A stretch of DNA of 64,000 nt, taken from positions 1-64,000 of the forward strand of contig NZ_VTPS01000005.1 in NCBI RefSeq assembly GCF_008274215.1, written 5' to 3'. This DNA comes from Calorimonas adulescens. Its GTDB lineage: Bacteria; Bacillota; Thermoanaerobacteria; Thermoanaerobacterales; UBA4877. Positions 32,719-60,377 of this stretch are shown piece after piece (the stretch's first letter is position 1; every line of letters starts with the position of its first letter). The position numbers and the translations under genes are program-made. Under the pieces are notes generated by a model, which ran no database searches, had not been told where the DNA came from, and saw only the letters and a list, made by a program, of their open reading frames with translations.

Positions 32719-33107
32719 TACAATCTCCTCCCGAATTTTAAGCTGCATTTTTAGTATAATTCATTATTAGTAAAACAGCAATATACAGATTAATCCTCAC
32801 TATTATTTTTTAGGGGATGTAGATATTATTCAGTATTTAGGAAACGCGTGAATTTGGATTCGCTACCGTTCATTCTAATTGTTGAAATCAAATAATCGCT
32901 TATGTAAAATAAACCAATGAGAGTACTGCATAGGAAAACAACGGTACTCTCTGCTTTTCCTCAAACTACAACCAATTATACGACTCTATGCCCTGCAGAA
33001 CTTTTTCGTCAATATATTTATACTCCGAATGGCATAAGCAACTTTATTGAGACACAGGATTCGTTGTGGTAAAATATAAATTGAAAAGTTGTTTGTTGGA
33101 GGTAATA
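32719..33107. other. Intergenic region with an inverted repeat
   Basis: No gene is seen. GAGAGTAC and GTACTCTC (32921-32953 region) are exact inverted 8-mers separated by about 17 bases and may form a terminator-like hairpin. A single LytTR-like half box lies near 32873. The end holds GTTGGAGG, the ribosome site of the next gene. Confidence 0.5.
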
Positions 33108-33410
33108 ATGTTGATGAGAACATTAAAACAATTTATTAAAAGAATAATCCTTGCTTATTTCGTAACTGGGATGGTCTATAGTCTGACAGGTTATATTCAT
33201 AGAAGCATCACAGGAAAGCAGGAGGTTTTTTCGCCATTGATAGGTATACCTATGGATGTAATCGGTTGGCCCTGGATGGTTTATGCTGACTTGAAGCATA
33301 TAGATACTATAGGTGTAAAGCCCTCAACCTTTTTAGCTTTAATTTCAATAGTTATGTTCATTGCCATATTTGTCAGGAAAGAGTTGCTTTTGAGGAGAAG
33401 CATGAAGTGA
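33108..33410 (+). CDS. Small two-span membrane protein
   Basis: The 100 residues contain two hydrophobic segments, IILAYFVTGMVYSLTGY near 13 and FLALISIVMFIAIFV near 76. Between them lies PMDVIGWPWMVYADL. GGAGG precedes ATG 33108 by 5 nt; the in-frame GTG upstream has no site. It overlaps the next lipoprotein gene by 4 nt (GTGA). I do not recognise a function. It is part of an AT-rich accessory cassette of membrane-associated proteins. Confidence 0.65.
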   Translation: MLMRTLKQFIKRIILAYFVTGMVYSLTGYIHRSITGKQEVFSPLIGIPMDVIGWPWMVYADLKHIDTIGVKPSTFLALISIVMFIAIFVRKELLLRRSMK

Positions 33411-33601
33411 GGAAAGTAACTATACTTATCATGTCAGGATTACTACTGATTATACTCGCTGGCTGTGGAGAAGTGGAAATACGGGAGGAAATATTACCGG
33501 ACGGTAGTAAATCTCAAGCGTTTGAAGGATACATCTATGATGAACAGACGGGATTGTACAAATTTATCATGAAAGGAGTATGTTATGATTGGTTTGCTTA
33601 A
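33407..33601 (+). CDS. Short lipoprotein, probably truncated
   Basis: The 64 residues start with a lipoprotein signal peptide ending in the lipobox LAGC (Cys near residue 20), followed by EVEIREEILPDGSKSQ and FEGYIYDEQTG. The same EGYIYDEQTG and preceding VLPD pattern occur in the longer broken copy at 33915-34637. This copy stops soon after, where the next gene begins, so it looks like the front of a duplicated gene. GTG start overlapping the upstream stop. Confidence 0.6.
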   Translation: MRKVTILIMSGLLLIILAGCGEVEIREEILPDGSKSQAFEGYIYDEQTGLYKFIMKGVCYDWFA

Positions 33602-33899
33602 TCTTGGCAGCCTCGTGCTTGGTCTAATTGCTTGGATACTTCCTGTTGTTAATCTCATGCGATATAAAAAGCATGACTATAGGAATTGGGTCACTCTTTC
33701 CATTATGAGCATCAGTGCTTGTGCTATTTCGCTATGTTTTCAGATTTTCTATAACTATCATCTGGTTAAGATTGCGGATTGGTCTGCTCTTATGGACATA
33801 ACGGATAATATGGCGTTCGTCGCAGCAGTTCTTCTCATCGTTACCATCATTTTAAATGCAATTACTCTGCTTGTATATCATGGCAGAACAGCAAAGTAA
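33585..33899 (+). CDS. Three-span membrane protein of unknown function
   Basis: The 104 residues have hydrophobic segments near 5-24, 38-58 and 75-98 and a charged loop RYKKHDYRNW between the first two. AAGGAG precedes the ATG by about 6 nt. It overlaps the end of the short lipoprotein gene. No recognised family. Confidence 0.65.
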   Translation: MIGLLNLGSLVLGLIAWILPVVNLMRYKKHDYRNWVTLSIMSISACAISLCFQIFYNYHLVKIADWSALMDITDNMAFVAAVLLIVTIILNAITLLVYHGRTAK

Positions 33900-33914
33900 G
33901 ATGTCAAAATTTAA

Positions 33915-34637
33915 GTAGAAACTCGGGAAAGAGTATTACCAGATAGTAGTACAGCAATAGTTGATTCTACTGGAAAAATCGTATCAAAGAATAAAGTTGA
34001 ACCACTTGAAGGATATATTTATGATGAACAAACAGGAAGGTATATTAACAAAACTACTGGTGTTTGGTATGTCGTTAAGGACGGATACAAAGAAAGAACA
34101 TTTACTGTTTTGGTAGACCGGGTTCTAAAAGGTGAGTATTCCGAACCAGAAATAGTGTTTACTGGGAAGAAAAATCCTGTTTACGGTTGGATGGGTAGTG
34201 TTCATACTCTACCGGAAACCAACACAGAATTGCTTCTGTTTTTAAGAAATGATGATAATGACAATCCACATGTCACATTTGACCTTAACTGTATTGCAGT
34301 CATTGAAGGACAACGGGTAACAAGTTTATTAGGTGGCAGTAACATTGGTATCAATGACGAGCATTGGGAGATTAAGGATTACATTGAAACATACAATGAA
34401 TTTCTCAATACTGCTGACCCGATTGTTACACAAACAGAAAAAACGACTAATGGGGAGAATGAAACAAATAAAGATTTATCTTCCCGTTCTATTGCAGTTA
34501 CCGCATCTGTATTCTGGCCAGGAATAATCACTTTTCTGATTTTATTAGGTTTATCGCTGGTAGGTCTTTGGTATTATGCACGTTCCAAACAAAATCATTC
34601 ACTCTTGCCGCCCTGCGGAACGAAGCGCGAAAAGTGA
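33915..34637 (+). pseudogene. 5'-truncated lipoprotein-like gene with C-terminal membrane anchor
   Basis: The frame opens right after a stop with VETRERVLPDSSTAIVDS, and EPLEGYIYDEQTGRYINKT follows, clearly related to the short lipoprotein at 33407. It continues through a globular part (GYKERTFTVLVDRVLKGEY, then NPVYGWMGSV) to a C-terminal membrane span near 34510-34580. There is no signal peptide and no standard start with a ribosome site before TTG 34110. The last codons run into the recombinase relic. I read it as the body of a gene whose head was separated by duplication. Confidence 0.6.
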
Positions 34638-35459
34638 GGCGGTGCGGTTTTAAAGGTGACGGCTTTATTTTCGTGCAGGGTTCCAACGATGACACTCCCG
34701 AAGGCAAGCTCCAGTCAAACATTCTTGCCACCTTTGCAGAATACGAGAGAGAAGCTATCAAGTTAAGGACGGTGACCGGCAAGAAAAAGCTGGCAAAAGC
34801 AGGTAAGTATTCCGGCGGCTCTCAACCCTTCGGCCACAGGTGGGGCGACGAAAAAGAAGAATGGGTAGTTCGAGAAGATGAGGCTAAGATAGTTAAGCTC
34901 ATTTTCCAATGGTACGTCTATGGAGACGAGTCCGAAAAGCCTTTGGGCATGGTGCGGATTGCCGAAAAGCTTACAGAACTTGGGAATACCCACACCTAAC
35001 CAATTTCGCAAAACTCGAAAGGGACGCGCTGGTAAGATGCAGGCTCATTGGGGCGACGCTACCATCCAGCGTATTCTTACTCACACTGTTTACGCTGGGA
35101 CAAATTATCTCTGGAGGGGTGACAAAGTGCAGTTGAGTCCTGAACACGTTGAAAAAATGAAAAAAGAAAAAACCGACGGCTGGTATGAGGAACTGTTTGA
35201 TGTCCGCTACCAGCCGGATGAAAAAACTGTTACGGAGAATATTGCTTTTGTGAAGGTTCACGATGAAAAACATTTAACGGTCGGATTCCCTCAGAGAATA
35301 GTAACCTGGGAAGAACTGCTTGACAGGTTACAAGTTAAATTGTGGGTGTATCCAGACCGTTTAGAGGTTCGGGGAATTGTCCCGATTGAAGATATAGCGA
35401 ATCCTAAATGCTGTTGCTTAAAAAGGTGTTTTCGTTTATTAAAAGGGCGATTTCTTTGA
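34600..35459 (+). pseudogene. Large serine recombinase, N-truncated and frameshifted
   Basis: The first frame reads FIFVQGSNDDTPEGKLQ, NILATFAEYEREAIKLRT and KYSGGSQPFGHRWGDE, the region after the catalytic domain of large serine recombinases. Near 34980 the frame shifts: ...AEKLTELG continues in the next frame as IPTPNQFRK, then HWGDATIQRILTHTVYAGTN, the recombinase domain. The catalytic serine domain is missing. It is the scar of an integrated mobile element and marks this zone as acquired. Confidence 0.85.
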
Positions 35460-35482
35460 TCGAAACGTCTTATTAATGTGGT

Positions 35483-35713
35483 TTATACACAATATTTTTT
35501 GGTATAGGCCATCTTCACGAGAAAGGTTTTCTTTCCCCAGGGGACAATCTCATTAACAAAGTCCGCATTTATTATGTAGCCCTTGTGGCAACGAAACAGT
35601 TTATCATTGTTGATGTTTACCAAGACGCTTTTTTCATCGGACTTAATTATGATTTTTTGGACCTGGCAGTTGTCTTTCTGTGGCTGAACCTCTTTAACAA
35701 TATTATGATTCAT
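35483..35713 (-). pseudogene. LytTR-type DNA-binding regulator with internal deletion
   Basis: From ATG 35713 (GGAGG upstream) the frame gives VQKIIIKSDEKSVLVNIN, then jumps to FRCHKGYIINADFVNEIVPW and GKKTFLVKMAY. These are the first and last parts of a LytTR domain, the DNA-binding domain of AgrA/VirR-like regulators. About 35 middle residues are missing and the end is cut, so 76 residues remain. It lies downstream of the AgrD-like gene on the same strand. It was probably the response regulator of that system and is likely inactive. Confidence 0.7.
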
Positions 35714-35893
35714 GTTTACCAACCCTCCTCGGCAATGAATTTGGATAAAAAACCGTGCACAGGGTGCGGTTGATAAACTATTGCAGATATCTAACGGCAA
35801 CCAGGCTGTCATAGTGAATGCAATCACCTTAGACCCTGTGGCTTTGCGCCCTTATCTTTCGATAAGTTTGCCTTTCTCTCTACTGTTTGGTTT

Positions 35894-36040
35894 TTACCTC
35901 GTGGAAAGTTTCTTCAGTGCGTCCGGCATGTCGGGTTCGTACAGTATCCATATGCTGGCGGGACTCACGCCTGTAAATGCGACTAAAGTTATTACTGAGG
36001 CCAGAGATGCAAGAAGGCTTTTTCCGATTTTTTTGAACAT
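35894..36040 (-). CDS. agrD: AgrD-like cyclic lactone autoinducer peptide precursor
   Basis: The 48 residues have the AgrD layout: an amphipathic front (MFKKIGKSLLASLASVITL), the exported core SPASIWILYEP, and an acidic tail DMPDALKKLSTR. The ring nucleophile at residue 29 is Ser, followed by four residues and Tyr34, so the pheromone would be a serine lactone (five-residue ring) rather than a thiolactone. Family precursors are cut by AgrB; no agrB or agrC is in the window. GAAAGGAG lies 10 nt before the ATG. The promoter carries three LytTR boxes. It is too short for standard gene calling. Confidence 0.8.
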   Translation of the reverse strand: MFKKIGKSLLASLASVITLVAFTGVSPASIWILYEPDMPDALKKLSTR

Positions 36041-36077
36041 AGTTTTTCGCCTCCTTTCTGATTTTTCTTATGATTTC

Positions 36078-36162
36078 TTCTACATTTGTTTGAAATTTCC
36101 TGCCGGGTTGGAACAACTGGCGGATTTTCCGGTACAACTGGCGGTTTTTTGGGTATGAACGG
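36078..36162 (-). promoter_or_regulatory. LytTR-box promoter of the AgrD-like gene
   Basis: Three direct repeats lie exactly 21 bp apart: TATGAACGG (36154-36162), TACAACTGG (36133-36141) and AACAACTGG (36112-36120). On the minus strand they read CCGTTCATA, CCAGTTGTA and CCAGTTGTT, which fits LytTR sites such as the VirR box CCAGTTNTNCAC. A -10-like ATGTAGAA follows (36078-36085), 26 bases after the last box. The same arrangement recurs at 60314-60377. Confidence 0.82.
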
Positions 36163-36220
36163 CGGAAGGGGAGTGATATAATGAAGCTATAAACATCAAA
36201 ACCAAAAGAGGTGTTCAAAC

Positions 36221-36286
36221 ATGAAATCTTGTTTAAAACTATTATCGATCTATTTCCTTTCTATTTTTTTGTTTATTTTTTTCTAA
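36221..36286 (+). CDS. Possible 21-residue hydrophobic peptide
   Basis: AGAGGTG precedes an ATG encoding MKSCLKLLSIYFLSIFLF plus three residues, a single hydrophobic helix. It is divergent from the AgrD-like promoter. It could be a tiny membrane peptide, or the signal-peptide remnant of a lost gene. I see no family. Confidence 0.25.
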   Translation: MKSCLKLLSIYFLSIFLFIFF

Positions 36287-36427
36287 ATTAGCATTGGAGA
36301 AAGACCAAATAGTTCCTTGATCATTTATTGAAATCATATCCCTGACAGAATTATATGAACAACTATTGCTGGCACATTGTTGTGGGGCTCAAGGTATTAG
36401 CTCATAACTTCAAGCGGATTGTAATTT

Positions 36428-36943
36428 TTAAAACGCATCGGTTTCTATTACGAAGGCATATACATATTCAATTTCACCAAAATATGCTATTATTTTATAA
36501 CCTCTGAATTCCGTCTTCTTTTTTACTGAACTTAAAAAAGAGGCGGGGTTTTTTTCAACTATAAAAACATATTTGTTATTTTCTCTTTTAAATGGAACTT
36601 CTACAATCGTTTCGTCGCCATATAAATTTTCTCCATTTGAGTTCAAGAGGATTTCTTTTATAATCATTTTATCCGGATGGTTATTTCCAAAATCCAAAGC
36701 AATTTTTTCGCCAATTTTAATGTATTTAATATCTGATGAAGCTTCTTGTTCGAATGCGAACTTAAACATATTCTTATTATCCGATAAATTATTTCTATTA
36801 TTTTTTAATGCGATACTTTTAATATTTTCTTGTCCGATGGTCACAGTTATATCTGCCATTTTATCAGCTTTCATACATCCACTGACTCCTATACACGTCA
36901 TTATTAACGATATAATAATTAAAATCCTTTTCATAATATTCAA
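36428..36943 (-). CDS. Secreted lipoprotein of unknown function
   Basis: The 171 residues start at TTG with AAGGAG 6-7 nt upstream. The signal peptide ends in the lipobox GVSGC (Cys near 23), so the protein is anchored on the outer face of the membrane. The rest is a soluble domain rich in Lys/Asn (FAFEQEASSDIKYIKIGEK in the middle). No family is recognised. It lies between the two AgrD-like genes on the same strand. Confidence 0.65.
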   Translation of the reverse strand: MNIMKRILIIISLIMTCIGVSGCMKADKMADITVTIGQENIKSIALKNNRNNLSDNKNMFKFAFEQEASSDIKYIKIGEKIALDFGNNHPDKMIIKEILLNSNGENLYGDETIVEVPFKRENNKYVFIVEKNPASFLSSVKKKTEFRGYKIIAYFGEIEYVYAFVIETDAF

Positions 36944-37077
36944 GTTTCACTCCTTTCAATTGACCCCAATTAAAAAGTGAAAGGGCATAACCCATATGTT
37001 GTTAAAATATGACAGATTTTTTACTATGTCAATACATAAAATAAAAATAAAATGTAAGAGCTTCGTGCTTAATAATG

Positions 37078-37106
37078 GGGACGGTCTGCTTTCTTAAAAC
37101 CGTCCC
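37078..37106. repeat. REP-like inverted repeat GGGACGGT/ACCGTCCC
   Basis: GGGACGGT (37078-37085) and ACCGTCCC (37099-37106) are exact complements with a 13-base loop. The word resembles the GGGGACGGTTCT-type REP elements common in Clostridia. A 12-base piece, GGGACGGTTTTA on the minus strand, also occurs inside the second AgrD-like gene near 38300-38311. Confidence 0.6.
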
Positions 37107-37164
37107 GGTTTCATGAGAATATTTTGTTTTTTAACATTTACTCAAATAACATGTAAATGTAATT

Positions 37165-38267
37165 TTACCTATAATAATATCGCAAAGCACTATCACTTAC
37201 ATAATATGGGCAAGAAGTGTAATAATGTTCTACAAGCCCGCATGATCCCCATTTTGATCTCACATAATATCCAGTTATCCTCCCTAGTTCATATATTATT
37301 CCTGAATGTTCTTTACCTGATGTACTGTAATATACTTTGTCGTTTTTGGCTGGATCGCCTGTTCTTCTAGTATAACTTCCATCTGTCCAATAAGCATTCG
37401 GATAATTCATCCACCACGTATTACTAGTAGTAGATTGACTATACCATGCATAAGAATGACAATTATAATTTTTAGTTGCAGAAGTTATACGGACGACAGT
37501 TGGATATGTCGTATCCACCCAATCATCGAGGGCAGCTTTTTCTGCTGCAGTTAACTCTGGGGTATTATGGAACACCTCAACTGCTGTACCGTTAGGTGTA
37601 TATACATAGTAAATTGTCTGCGCACTTACACTGGAATCCTGTTTTTGTGCTAGTACAGAATAAGCACTTGCTGCCGTTAGGCTATAAATATCAGGATGGG
37701 CTTTCTTTTGTAAATATTTATTCTCTATTTCTTTTTCTAATTCCCTCATTTCTGTATCATTCAGTTGGCTTAATATGGCATCTTGGCTTAATATTATTTC
37801 TATAAAGGACAAATCAAAAATTTGTTTCGAAGTAACTTTCTTAACATCCTTAGCTACATCAATTTTTTTGTATTTGTTAAATAATTTACTGGCTGCATCC
37901 TTTCTTTGCAATAATTCCGCAAGTCCGTTAAAATTTGTTGATACTGCATCAAAACCTTTTTGAAAGTATCATATGTATATATTTCCATCAATAATGGATA
38001 ATTCAGTACTGTTTCTATTAGTTCATCAGTTGTCATGTTGTGCAATAGACCTTCTGGTACCTGACATGCCTCCACCATTTGAGTATGGTCTATTAATTCA
38101 TTCCATTCGCTTGTTCCAGGCTTAACAGGAAAAGTATAGCCCACTGCGATTGATTTTTCTTGACTACTTATATCGTCTGCATTTGCAGAAACAACTGTAC
38201 TCTTTAAAAACACACATATCATCAATAATGATAATGCGAATGATAATAATTTTTTCTTACTTTTCAT
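37165..38267 (-). pseudogene. Secreted Cys/His (papain-like) exoprotein, single frameshift
   Basis: The first frame (38267 down to about 37965) has a signal peptide (MKSKKKLLSFALSLLMICVF) and runs to TYDTFKK, where a run AAAAAGG is one base short. Adding one base gives continuous sequence GFDAVSTNFNGLAELLQRKD into the second frame, which ends at 37165 with about 367 residues in total. The C-terminal part has YNCHSYAWYS, a tryptophan-rich stretch and HSGIIYELG, a Cys...His layout like papain/NlpC-type folds or DUF7689-like proteins. It starts 15 nt after the second AgrD-like gene. The frameshift may be real or a sequencing error in the homopolymer. Confidence 0.7.
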
Positions 38268-38282
38268 TTTTTTAATCTCCTC

Positions 38283-38402
38283 TCAATGATAATTTTTGCG
38301 GTAAAACCGTCCCATGCACACAGGTTTGACAGCAGCGACCGTACCTATGAGTGTGAATAAAGATGCAGCACTTATTATCATTTTGCTTTTTAAACCCGTC
38401 AT
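38283..38402 (-). CDS. Second AgrD-like peptide precursor, tail degenerate
   Basis: The 39 residues align in register with the first AgrD-like peptide: amphipathic front (LKSKMIISAASLFTLIGTV), Pro27, nucleophile Cys29, four residues, Tyr34. The ring would be Cys-Met-Gly-Arg-Phe. The acidic x-Pro-x-x-Pro tail is replaced by RKNYH, so AgrB processing is doubtful. The DNA from the ring onward (GGGACGGTTTTA) matches the REP-like element at 37099, so the tail may have been overwritten. AAGAGGCG precedes the ATG. It is directly upstream of a secreted-protein gene. Confidence 0.6.
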   Translation of the reverse strand: MTGLKSKMIISAASLFTLIGTVAAVKPVCMGRFYRKNYH

Positions 38403-38513
38403 GGCATTTTCGCCTCTTTTCCATTCTGATATTTGTGAGGGTTTTTAACTAAATAAATTTTACACGATTTCCGATTTAACTTAAATAATGTTGATTACTA
38501 AATAGCTCTCCTT

Positions 38514-48982: not shown

Positions 48983-49005
48983 TTCTCACAGGCTCTTTAA
49001 AGTGT

Positions 49006-49082
49006 TACACCCATAGCCAGGGAAGTTTACGGCTTCCCGGTAGAGACCCCTGAACCATATTATCAGGGTTATATGAGTGCAT
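49006..49082 (-). ncRNA. Guanine-sensing purine riboswitch aptamer
   Basis: The minus strand contains the purine aptamer landmarks: P1 strand with CTCATATAA, the stem CCCTGATAATATGGTTCAGGG, GTCTCTACCGGG, and the closing CTATGGGTG. The discriminating base in GGCTATGG is C, which marks guanine rather than adenine. Guanine binding would favour the downstream terminator and switch off the purE operon. Confidence 0.93.
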
Positions 49083-49257
49083 TGAATTGAGATATCTATA
49101 TATTAACAGATGAATATCTCACTGTCAAGAGATTATACGAATAATTTTATTCATGCATCATATAACGTTCGTATTTTATGCAAATATTATGCTTTACTAT
49201 AGATGTGTTCAGAAATATATTAAGGTGTTAAGTTAGTATTTTATATGCTAATATTTA

Positions 49258-59375: not shown

Positions 59376-60095
59376 CTAATATAAATCAGTTAGACCAATA
59401 TTTATTGCATAAGTCTTAGCTTTCGTGGTAAGATAAACCATACCGCTAACTGCGGCGCTAACCTCTACGATGTCAAGTCCTTTGGTAATTCCGAGTGATG
59501 CACTAACAGAATATTTAAGAACAGCGGTTTGACTAATTCTTGCAGAAGTAGAAGTATTTTCGATATTAAATCCACCACCAATTATTTCTGCAACGCTAAA
59601 ACCTGGTATATACATTATGGGTTGTCCAATGCTTTCAATTTGAATTGGTTTGTTATACGCATTGCTCCAAAGATATTTTACTTCGGTTGCAATATTAACT
59701 CTGAAAACTTTTTTATTGCTATTGATATCTCCTGCTTTTTTATCAATCGTTTTATATCTTATTTCTTCATCCTGGACCATCGGGCTATTTTTTAGTAACG
59801 AATATATTTCTTCATCGTTAATTTTTTTTGCTTCTTCAAAAGTAATTCCTTTTTGTTGAGCTATACTTGCAATATATCTTTCTTCTGTATTTGGAGCATA
59901 ATCAAATGGATTAGTTGACTTCGTGTTGCTTTCGTGAGAAACAGTTGGCGTATTGATTATAGTATCTACAGAATATGTTTTATCTAAATCTTTATCTGCT
60001 GCATAAACCTCCATATTAAAATTTGCTGAAATTATGCTTAGAATTAACGCAATTGCAAAAATCACACCATACAGTTTTTTATATTTTTTAAACAT
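59376..60095 (-). CDS. Secreted protein controlled by a LytTR-box promoter
   Basis: The 239 residues start with a signal peptide cut near VYA-ADKD (residue 32). The mature part has a linker (THE Ser/Thr/Asn-rich stretch to residue 65), a helical segment YIASIAQQKGITFEEAKKIN, and a beta-rich C-terminal domain with SARISQTAVLKYSVSASLGI. I do not recognise it; bacteriocin or exoprotein roles are possible. GGGGAAAGAC precedes the ATG. The promoter about 220 nt upstream matches that of the AgrD-like gene. Confidence 0.7.
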   Translation of the reverse strand: MFKKYKKLYGVIFAIALILSIISANFNMEVYAADKDLDKTYSVDTIINTPTVSHESNTKSTNPFDYAPNTEERYIASIAQQKGITFEEAKKINDEEIYSLLKNSPMVQDEEIRYKTIDKKAGDINSNKKVFRVNIATEVKYLWSNAYNKPIQIESIGQPIMYIPGFSVAEIIGGGFNIENTSTSARISQTAVLKYSVSASLGITKGLDIVEVSAAVSGMVYLTTKAKTYAINIGLTDLY

Positions 60096-60313: not shown

Positions 60314-60377
60314 TTCTACATAACTTTTTATTTTCCTGCATGTTTGGAACAACTGTTCGATTTCGAGGTATGAACGG
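60314..60377 (-). promoter_or_regulatory. LytTR-box promoter of the secreted-protein gene
   Basis: Two direct repeats lie 21 bp apart: TATGAACGG (60369-60377) and AACAACTGT (60348-60356). After 26 bases comes ATGTAGAA (60314-60321), the same box at the same distance as in the AgrD-like promoter; GCAGGAAA in between is also shared. So a regulator with an AgrA/VirR-type LytTR domain should activate both. Confidence 0.82.

Follow-up and report, generated by a model that had tools for sequence, protein, structure and literature searches.

The window (the whole 64,000-nucleotide stretch of Calorimonas adulescens DNA that was analysed) carries a short agrD gene with three direct repeats in front of it, and a c-di-GMP-I riboswitch aptamer and a shortened LytTR ORF behind it (Table 1). 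The gene starts at 36040, ends at 35894 and codes for MFKKIGKSLLASLASVITLVAFTGVSPASIWILYEPDMPDALKKLSTR (48 aa). A frame at this place had been reported in a preliminary description of the DNA. The frame exists and its strand is minus, the plus strand of 35894-36040 being interrupted by stops. The riboswitch, the LytTR-type boxes and a second, truncated AgrD had been overlooked.

Table 1. Features in and around the agrD locus, in coordinates of the window.
Feature	Position	Strand	Basis or remark
agrD, 48-aa AgrD-family precursor	35894..36040	minus	TIGR04223; ring residue Ser29 (SIWIL), tail YEPDMPDALKKLSTR
Ribosome-binding site AAAGGAGG	36050..36057 (read 36057-36050)	minus	read from sequence; ATG at 36040
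Three direct repeats, 21-bp period, LytTR-type geometry	36110..36161	minus	upstream of agrD
Box 1 CGTTCATACC	36161-36152	minus	
Box 2 CAGTTGTACC	36140-36131	minus	
Box 3 CAGTTGTTCC	36119-36110	minus	
Second copy of paired boxes	60346..60376 (60376-60346)	minus	upstream of secreted-protein gene 60095-59376 (-)
c-di-GMP-I riboswitch aptamer	35793..35882	minus	82.7 bits to RF01051 (gathering score 35), model positions 1-87 all covered
Hairpin of terminator type with a T run (AACCGCACCCTGTGCACGGTTTTTT), perhaps the expression platform	35747..35771	minus	sequence and RNA folding, -6.0 kcal/mol
Shortened LytTR ORF, 76 aa	35483..35713	minus	PF04397 30.7 bits, profile 41-82 of 98
5.7-kb insertion between purD-adjacent small gene and pepT	32813..38493		blastn of window against L091
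Serine-recombinase remnants, two frames	34568..35459	plus	matches to PF00239 (Resolvase) and, weakly, to PF07508 (Recombinase)
Second AgrD-like peptide, Cys type, 39 aa, MTGLKSKMIISAASLFTLIGTVAAVKPVCMGRFYRKNYH, without PxxP tail	38283..38402	minus	upstream of frameshifted secreted-protein gene
Secreted-protein gene split by frameshift	37165..38267	minus	ORFs 37854-38267 and 37165-37911 overlap and differ in frame

The AgrD profile search that had been suggested as a check gave a match well above the threshold: TIGR04223 (quorum_AgrD) scored 41.3 bits against the 48-aa protein (cut-off 19, E 1.2e-10). Over the whole genome of the organism agrD was the single match to this profile even with E up to 10, and the match is therefore not a chance one. 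The leader is amphipathic (moment 0.445, equalled by 66 of 5000 shuffles). Residue 29 in the translated minus-strand frame is Ser, as had been stated, and it is followed by Ile-Trp-Ile-Leu and then by Tyr-Glu-Pro, so that a Cys/Ser ring residue five before the tail and a charged PxxP tail are both present (S29-IWIL-YEPDMPDALKK). These are the characters of AgrD/cyclic lactone autoinducer precursors in general, and the AgrD architecture and the strong ribosome site described earlier are thus borne out. On these sequence characters the frame is a genuine AgrD-family precursor with a serine at the ring position. It differs from the TIGR04223 precursors generally in that its genome has no AgrB and a c-di-GMP-I aptamer lies directly downstream.

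The serine had been presented as an unusual residue. The ring residue was compared in 54 readable AgrDs, a non-random set of close relatives and best-scoring matches of the phylum, and was Cys in 36, Ser in 17 (the one in the window included) and Thr in one; counted by distinct ring sequence (n=42), the values are 25, 16 and one. A serine is likewise listed for C. difficile agr2, NSA[SSWVA], S. pseudintermedius agr, RIPT[STGFF], and the E. faecalis Fsr peptide GBAP, whose ring has nine residues (review table, PMC12312760). A Ser ring residue is thus common among AgrDs of this phylum, the Ser type is ordinary, and the serine was rejected as a remarkable feature. The three published systems are complete operons with their own processing enzyme, unlike the locus in the window.

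Searches for the partners of AgrD were carried out on the organism's own genome (54 contigs totalling 2.59 Mb, completeness 98.67%). AgrB (PF04647) gave no match in it at E 0.001 or 0.01, so that the earlier observation of no AgrB nearby extends to the whole assembly. In a phylum sample of 398 genomes AgrD is present in 156, AgrB in 165 and both in 150, and the present genome is one of the six AgrD-bearing genomes without AgrB. In the 21 other AgrD-bearing genomes of close relatives, AgrB is without exception located within ~1.5 kb of AgrD. The LytTR search of the own genome detected no AgrA-type response regulator; it returned a full-length regulator on contig C19, the shortened ORF beside agrD and one sub-threshold match. 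The C19 regulator adjoins a LytS-type kinase and a CstA-like gene, appears BtsR-like on account of these neighbours, and was rejected as the missing AgrA. The best match to the broad GHKL domain PF14501 reached 26.2 bits, compared with 40.9 and 66.5 for the AgrC proteins of the relatives G005 and G404; HATPase matches were weak, and that domain is too general to exclude an AgrC. A protein-pattern scan of genome contigs with AgrD alone confirmed nothing. The preliminary description had predicted a lactone pheromone and had itself taken a genome without agrB as refuting it; with neither AgrB nor an AgrA-type regulator, that prediction fails for this assembly. In its present setting agrD probably yields no signal.

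Typical LytTR sites are 9-bp repeats, spaced for the most part by 12 bp, that lie immediately ahead of the -35 element (PMC6193735). The three boxes upstream of agrD have this type of geometry, and the same boxes with the 21-bp period precede the complete agr operon of the MAG Thermoanaerobacterales bacterium AS04akNAM_31 (G404), which identifies them as those of an agr promoter. An IS21-like end, suspected at this place from the repeated CCAGTT motifs, was rejected in favour of these boxes. When the whole genome was scanned for the paired pattern with ≤3 mismatches, two sites only were obtained, the one before agrD and the one at 60376-60346, and the reversed-pattern control gave 0 matches. 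The gene behind the second pair (59376-60095, minus strand) codes for a secreted protein of no assigned family; the G+C is low here (0.308).

The aptamer starts 11 nt past the agrD stop and is a full c-di-GMP-I (GEMM) aptamer, which differs from other riboswitches of this class in lying between agrD and a LytTR ORF. The hairpin behind it was seen by eye as kept in the Tepidanaerobacteraceae MAG A05DMB13 (G208). RNA folding is compatible with either direction of the switch; a segment before the hairpin can also pair with the stretch between the ribosome site and the ATG. The LytTR ORF begins with GAGGAGG and an ATG, and its C-terminal part covers less than half of the LytTR profile; relative to its counterparts in contigs G404:C3 and G208:C12, internal and C-terminal segments have been lost. 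Several of the nearest full-length LytTR relatives lie within ~1 kb of agrD or agrB. In 40 loci of ~3 kb around other AgrDs (38 readable AgrDs) the search for a c-di-GMP-I aptamer was negative, and the pairing of agrD with the aptamer is thus specific to this cassette. Stand-alone LytTR systems of the HdrRM/BrsRM type also have direct repeats with a ~21-bp period (PMC6193735) and, likewise, a LytTR protein without receiver domain. The window differs from them in that agrD and the c-di-GMP-I riboswitch precede the LytTR ORF and in that the protein is shortened.

The closest complete counterpart is found in contig G404:C18 of AS04akNAM_31, where the boxes are followed by agrD, a gene for a membrane protein (X), agrC, agrB and agrA. 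The AgrD of this operon, MFKKTRAFFLRSLASLITAVAFIGVSPQSAWIFYEPDIPEDLK, is also of the Ser type (TIGR04223 31.9 bits) and is identical to that of the window at 28 of 43 residues (65%). Its AgrC is a GHKL protein, its AgrB matches PF04647 at 116.6 bits and its AgrA consists of a receiver and a LytTR domain. The operon has the boxes and the Ser-type AgrD in common with the window; unlike the window, it is complete, and no riboswitch was found at it. By this comparison, agrD in the window looks like the opening gene of an operon of this kind whose remaining genes have given way to the aptamer and the LytTR ORF.

The recurrence of the arrangement was followed by protein and DNA. The N-terminal 40 residues of the 76-aa ORF recur among the 398 genomes in G404 and G208 (68-70% identical), each time beside a c-di-GMP-I aptamer. 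An exact scan with the aptamer core over 84,980 species genomes returned four contigs, all from MAGs: two from AS04akNAM_31 and two from Tepidanaerobacteraceae, namely DJKA105 (L151) and A05DMB13. One of the AS04akNAM_31 contigs is G404:C3 (3580 bases), and that of A05DMB13 is G208:C12 (21111 bases). In DJKA105 the boxes are followed by the 3' half of agrD, SIWILYEPDIPDVLKKTS, and then by the aptamer, the agrD leader being deleted. In A05DMB13 one copy has the boxes, a frameshifted 3' remnant of agrD and the aptamer; a second has the boxes, a small membrane ORF, the aptamer and the N-terminal part of a LytTR gene; and a third set of boxes stands before a secreted-protein fragment. Remnants of the agrD 3' end are joined to the aptamer both in L151 and in L154 (G208:C12). 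At the DNA level, the boxes and aptamer regions of L151 are 83-96% identical to the window, and those of G208 mostly 82-93%. In the 3' half shared by L151 and the window, SIWILYEPD is unchanged in spite of five silently different codons, and the three amino-acid changes are all in the tail, which points to selection on the peptide at one time or another. The unit of boxes, (agrD), aptamer and LytTR gene is thus found again, for the most part in damaged form, in MAGs that carry the label Tepidanaerobacteraceae or Thermoanaerobacterales; a complete undamaged unit was present in none of the genomes searched. Carriage on a plasmid or phage was considered and rejected: plasmids gave just two short aptamer-like matches of 53-55 bases, phages gave no match, and viral contigs gave none for the exact core pattern.

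Two of these copies have features of their own. At ~7400-8170 of L154 (minus strand) an apparently membrane-located 60-aa ORF takes the place of agrD before the aptamer and the LytTR-like ORF; this copy might resemble systems of a LytTR regulator and a membrane inhibitor, a likeness that extends to the HdrRM/BrsRM type. In L150 of AS04akNAM_31 (1600-2280) the same aptamer core, with its 3' end cut, stands directly before a sigma-factor-like gene.

In the window, the cassette lies within an insertion. The sister genome G001 is without it; there the small purD-adjacent gene adjoins pepT, with 176 bp between them in the alignment. The insertion has a G+C of 0.369, compared with 0.42 for the window, and contains agrD, the riboswitch, the LytTR ORF, the serine-recombinase remnants, a lipoprotein-like gene, the frameshifted secreted-protein gene and the second AgrD-like peptide, which lies upstream of the secreted-protein gene. 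This peptide had no profile match of its own; it is 69% identical to a relative in G404:C3, MTELKSKMIISAASLFIPVVTTVTTVKPMCMGWFYRPEVPEILKGPIKKKKGVV, which itself clears the TIGR04223 cut-off at 23.7 bits. Judged against this intact relative, it has lost its PxxP tail.

These results suggest that agrD belongs to a dispersed agr-regulon cassette that was probably acquired horizontally and is now decaying, the gene being a relic, or close to one, from which no mature signal is made; we hold this to be the most probable reading, with reasonable though not strong confidence. The cassette would have come from thermophilic clostridia resembling Tepidanaerobacteraceae. As a hypothesis drawn from the layout, in that source lineage agrD would be switched on by an AgrA-like LytTR protein bound to the boxes, and the riboswitch, lying directly behind agrD, would make expression of the LytTR regulator further downstream depend on c-di-GMP. 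Peptide signalling and c-di-GMP would in this way be brought together on a single transcript. In the present genome the cassette is decaying: AgrB and AgrA were not found, the LytTR ORF is shortened, the second AgrD is tailless, and the secreted-protein and recombinase genes are broken, all of which make agrD a likely relic. Counting against a pure relic, agrD, the boxes, the ribosome site and the aptamer are all intact in the window. A bolder version, to which we give a tentative place somewhat short of an even chance, is that thermophilic clostridia possess an undescribed cassette whose agr-type promoter transcribes agrD and, through the c-di-GMP-I riboswitch on that transcript, the LytTR regulator, which would join quorum sensing by peptide to c-di-GMP; it would spread from genome to genome in multiple copies, with intact versions elsewhere. 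As no fully intact unit of boxes, agrD, aptamer and LytTR gene was found, repeated recombination between boxes and aptamers may have produced part of this layout as a side effect.

The intact ORF, ribosome site, boxes and leader would also suit a working orphan pheromone, with agrD expressed and its product matured to a Ser lactone by another membrane peptidase or by an AgrB in the unassembled part; in a draft of 54 contigs at 98.67% completeness AgrB could sit in a gap. With AgrB missing from an assembly of that completeness and adjoining AgrD in the 21 other AgrD-bearing close relatives, and with no AgrA-type regulator, this is unlikely. It is similarly improbable that the cassette works here without AgrB, the shortened, c-di-GMP-gated LytTR protein binding the boxes at agrD and at the secreted-protein gene near 60 kb while agrD is a passenger or acts uncut. 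The boxes do occur at exactly two sites, each near an intact ORF, the aptamer is intact and the LytTR ORF retains its start signals, but that ORF is only part of a domain, with the segments present in G404 lost. Descent from the purD-linked agr locus of the order, with agrB and agrC simply deleted, is disfavoured and appears very doubtful. The relatives G003 and G005 carry purD-agrB-X-agrC-agrD with a Ser-type AgrD, and agrD in the window is also downstream of purD; however, the AgrD of the window is 45-48% identical to theirs and 65% to that of G404, their loci are without such boxes or riboswitch, and in boxes and aptamer the window shares 82-96% DNA identity with the MAG cassettes, a grouping that is itself partly seen. 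In these two relatives (L068 6420-9436, and L069) the purD-linked Ser-type agrD is followed by an HD-GYP-like gene, possibly a further tie to c-di-GMP.

A c-di-GMP riboswitch directly behind agrD and ahead of a LytTR regulator would couple cell-density signalling, physically and directly, to the second messenger of the motile-to-sessile change, and the arrangement recurs in several genomes. In the open-access literature no description of the boxes-agrD-riboswitch-LytTR arrangement was found, which is not proof of novelty, nor any paper with 'orphan agrD' or with both 'c-di-GMP-I riboswitch' and 'LytTR'. The locus is also an example of how copies of agrD can scatter and persist after their processing enzyme has gone, and counts of AgrD genes would for this reason overestimate the number of working signals. 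Elsewhere in the window, a purine riboswitch is present at 48994-49096 on the minus strand (82.5 bits).
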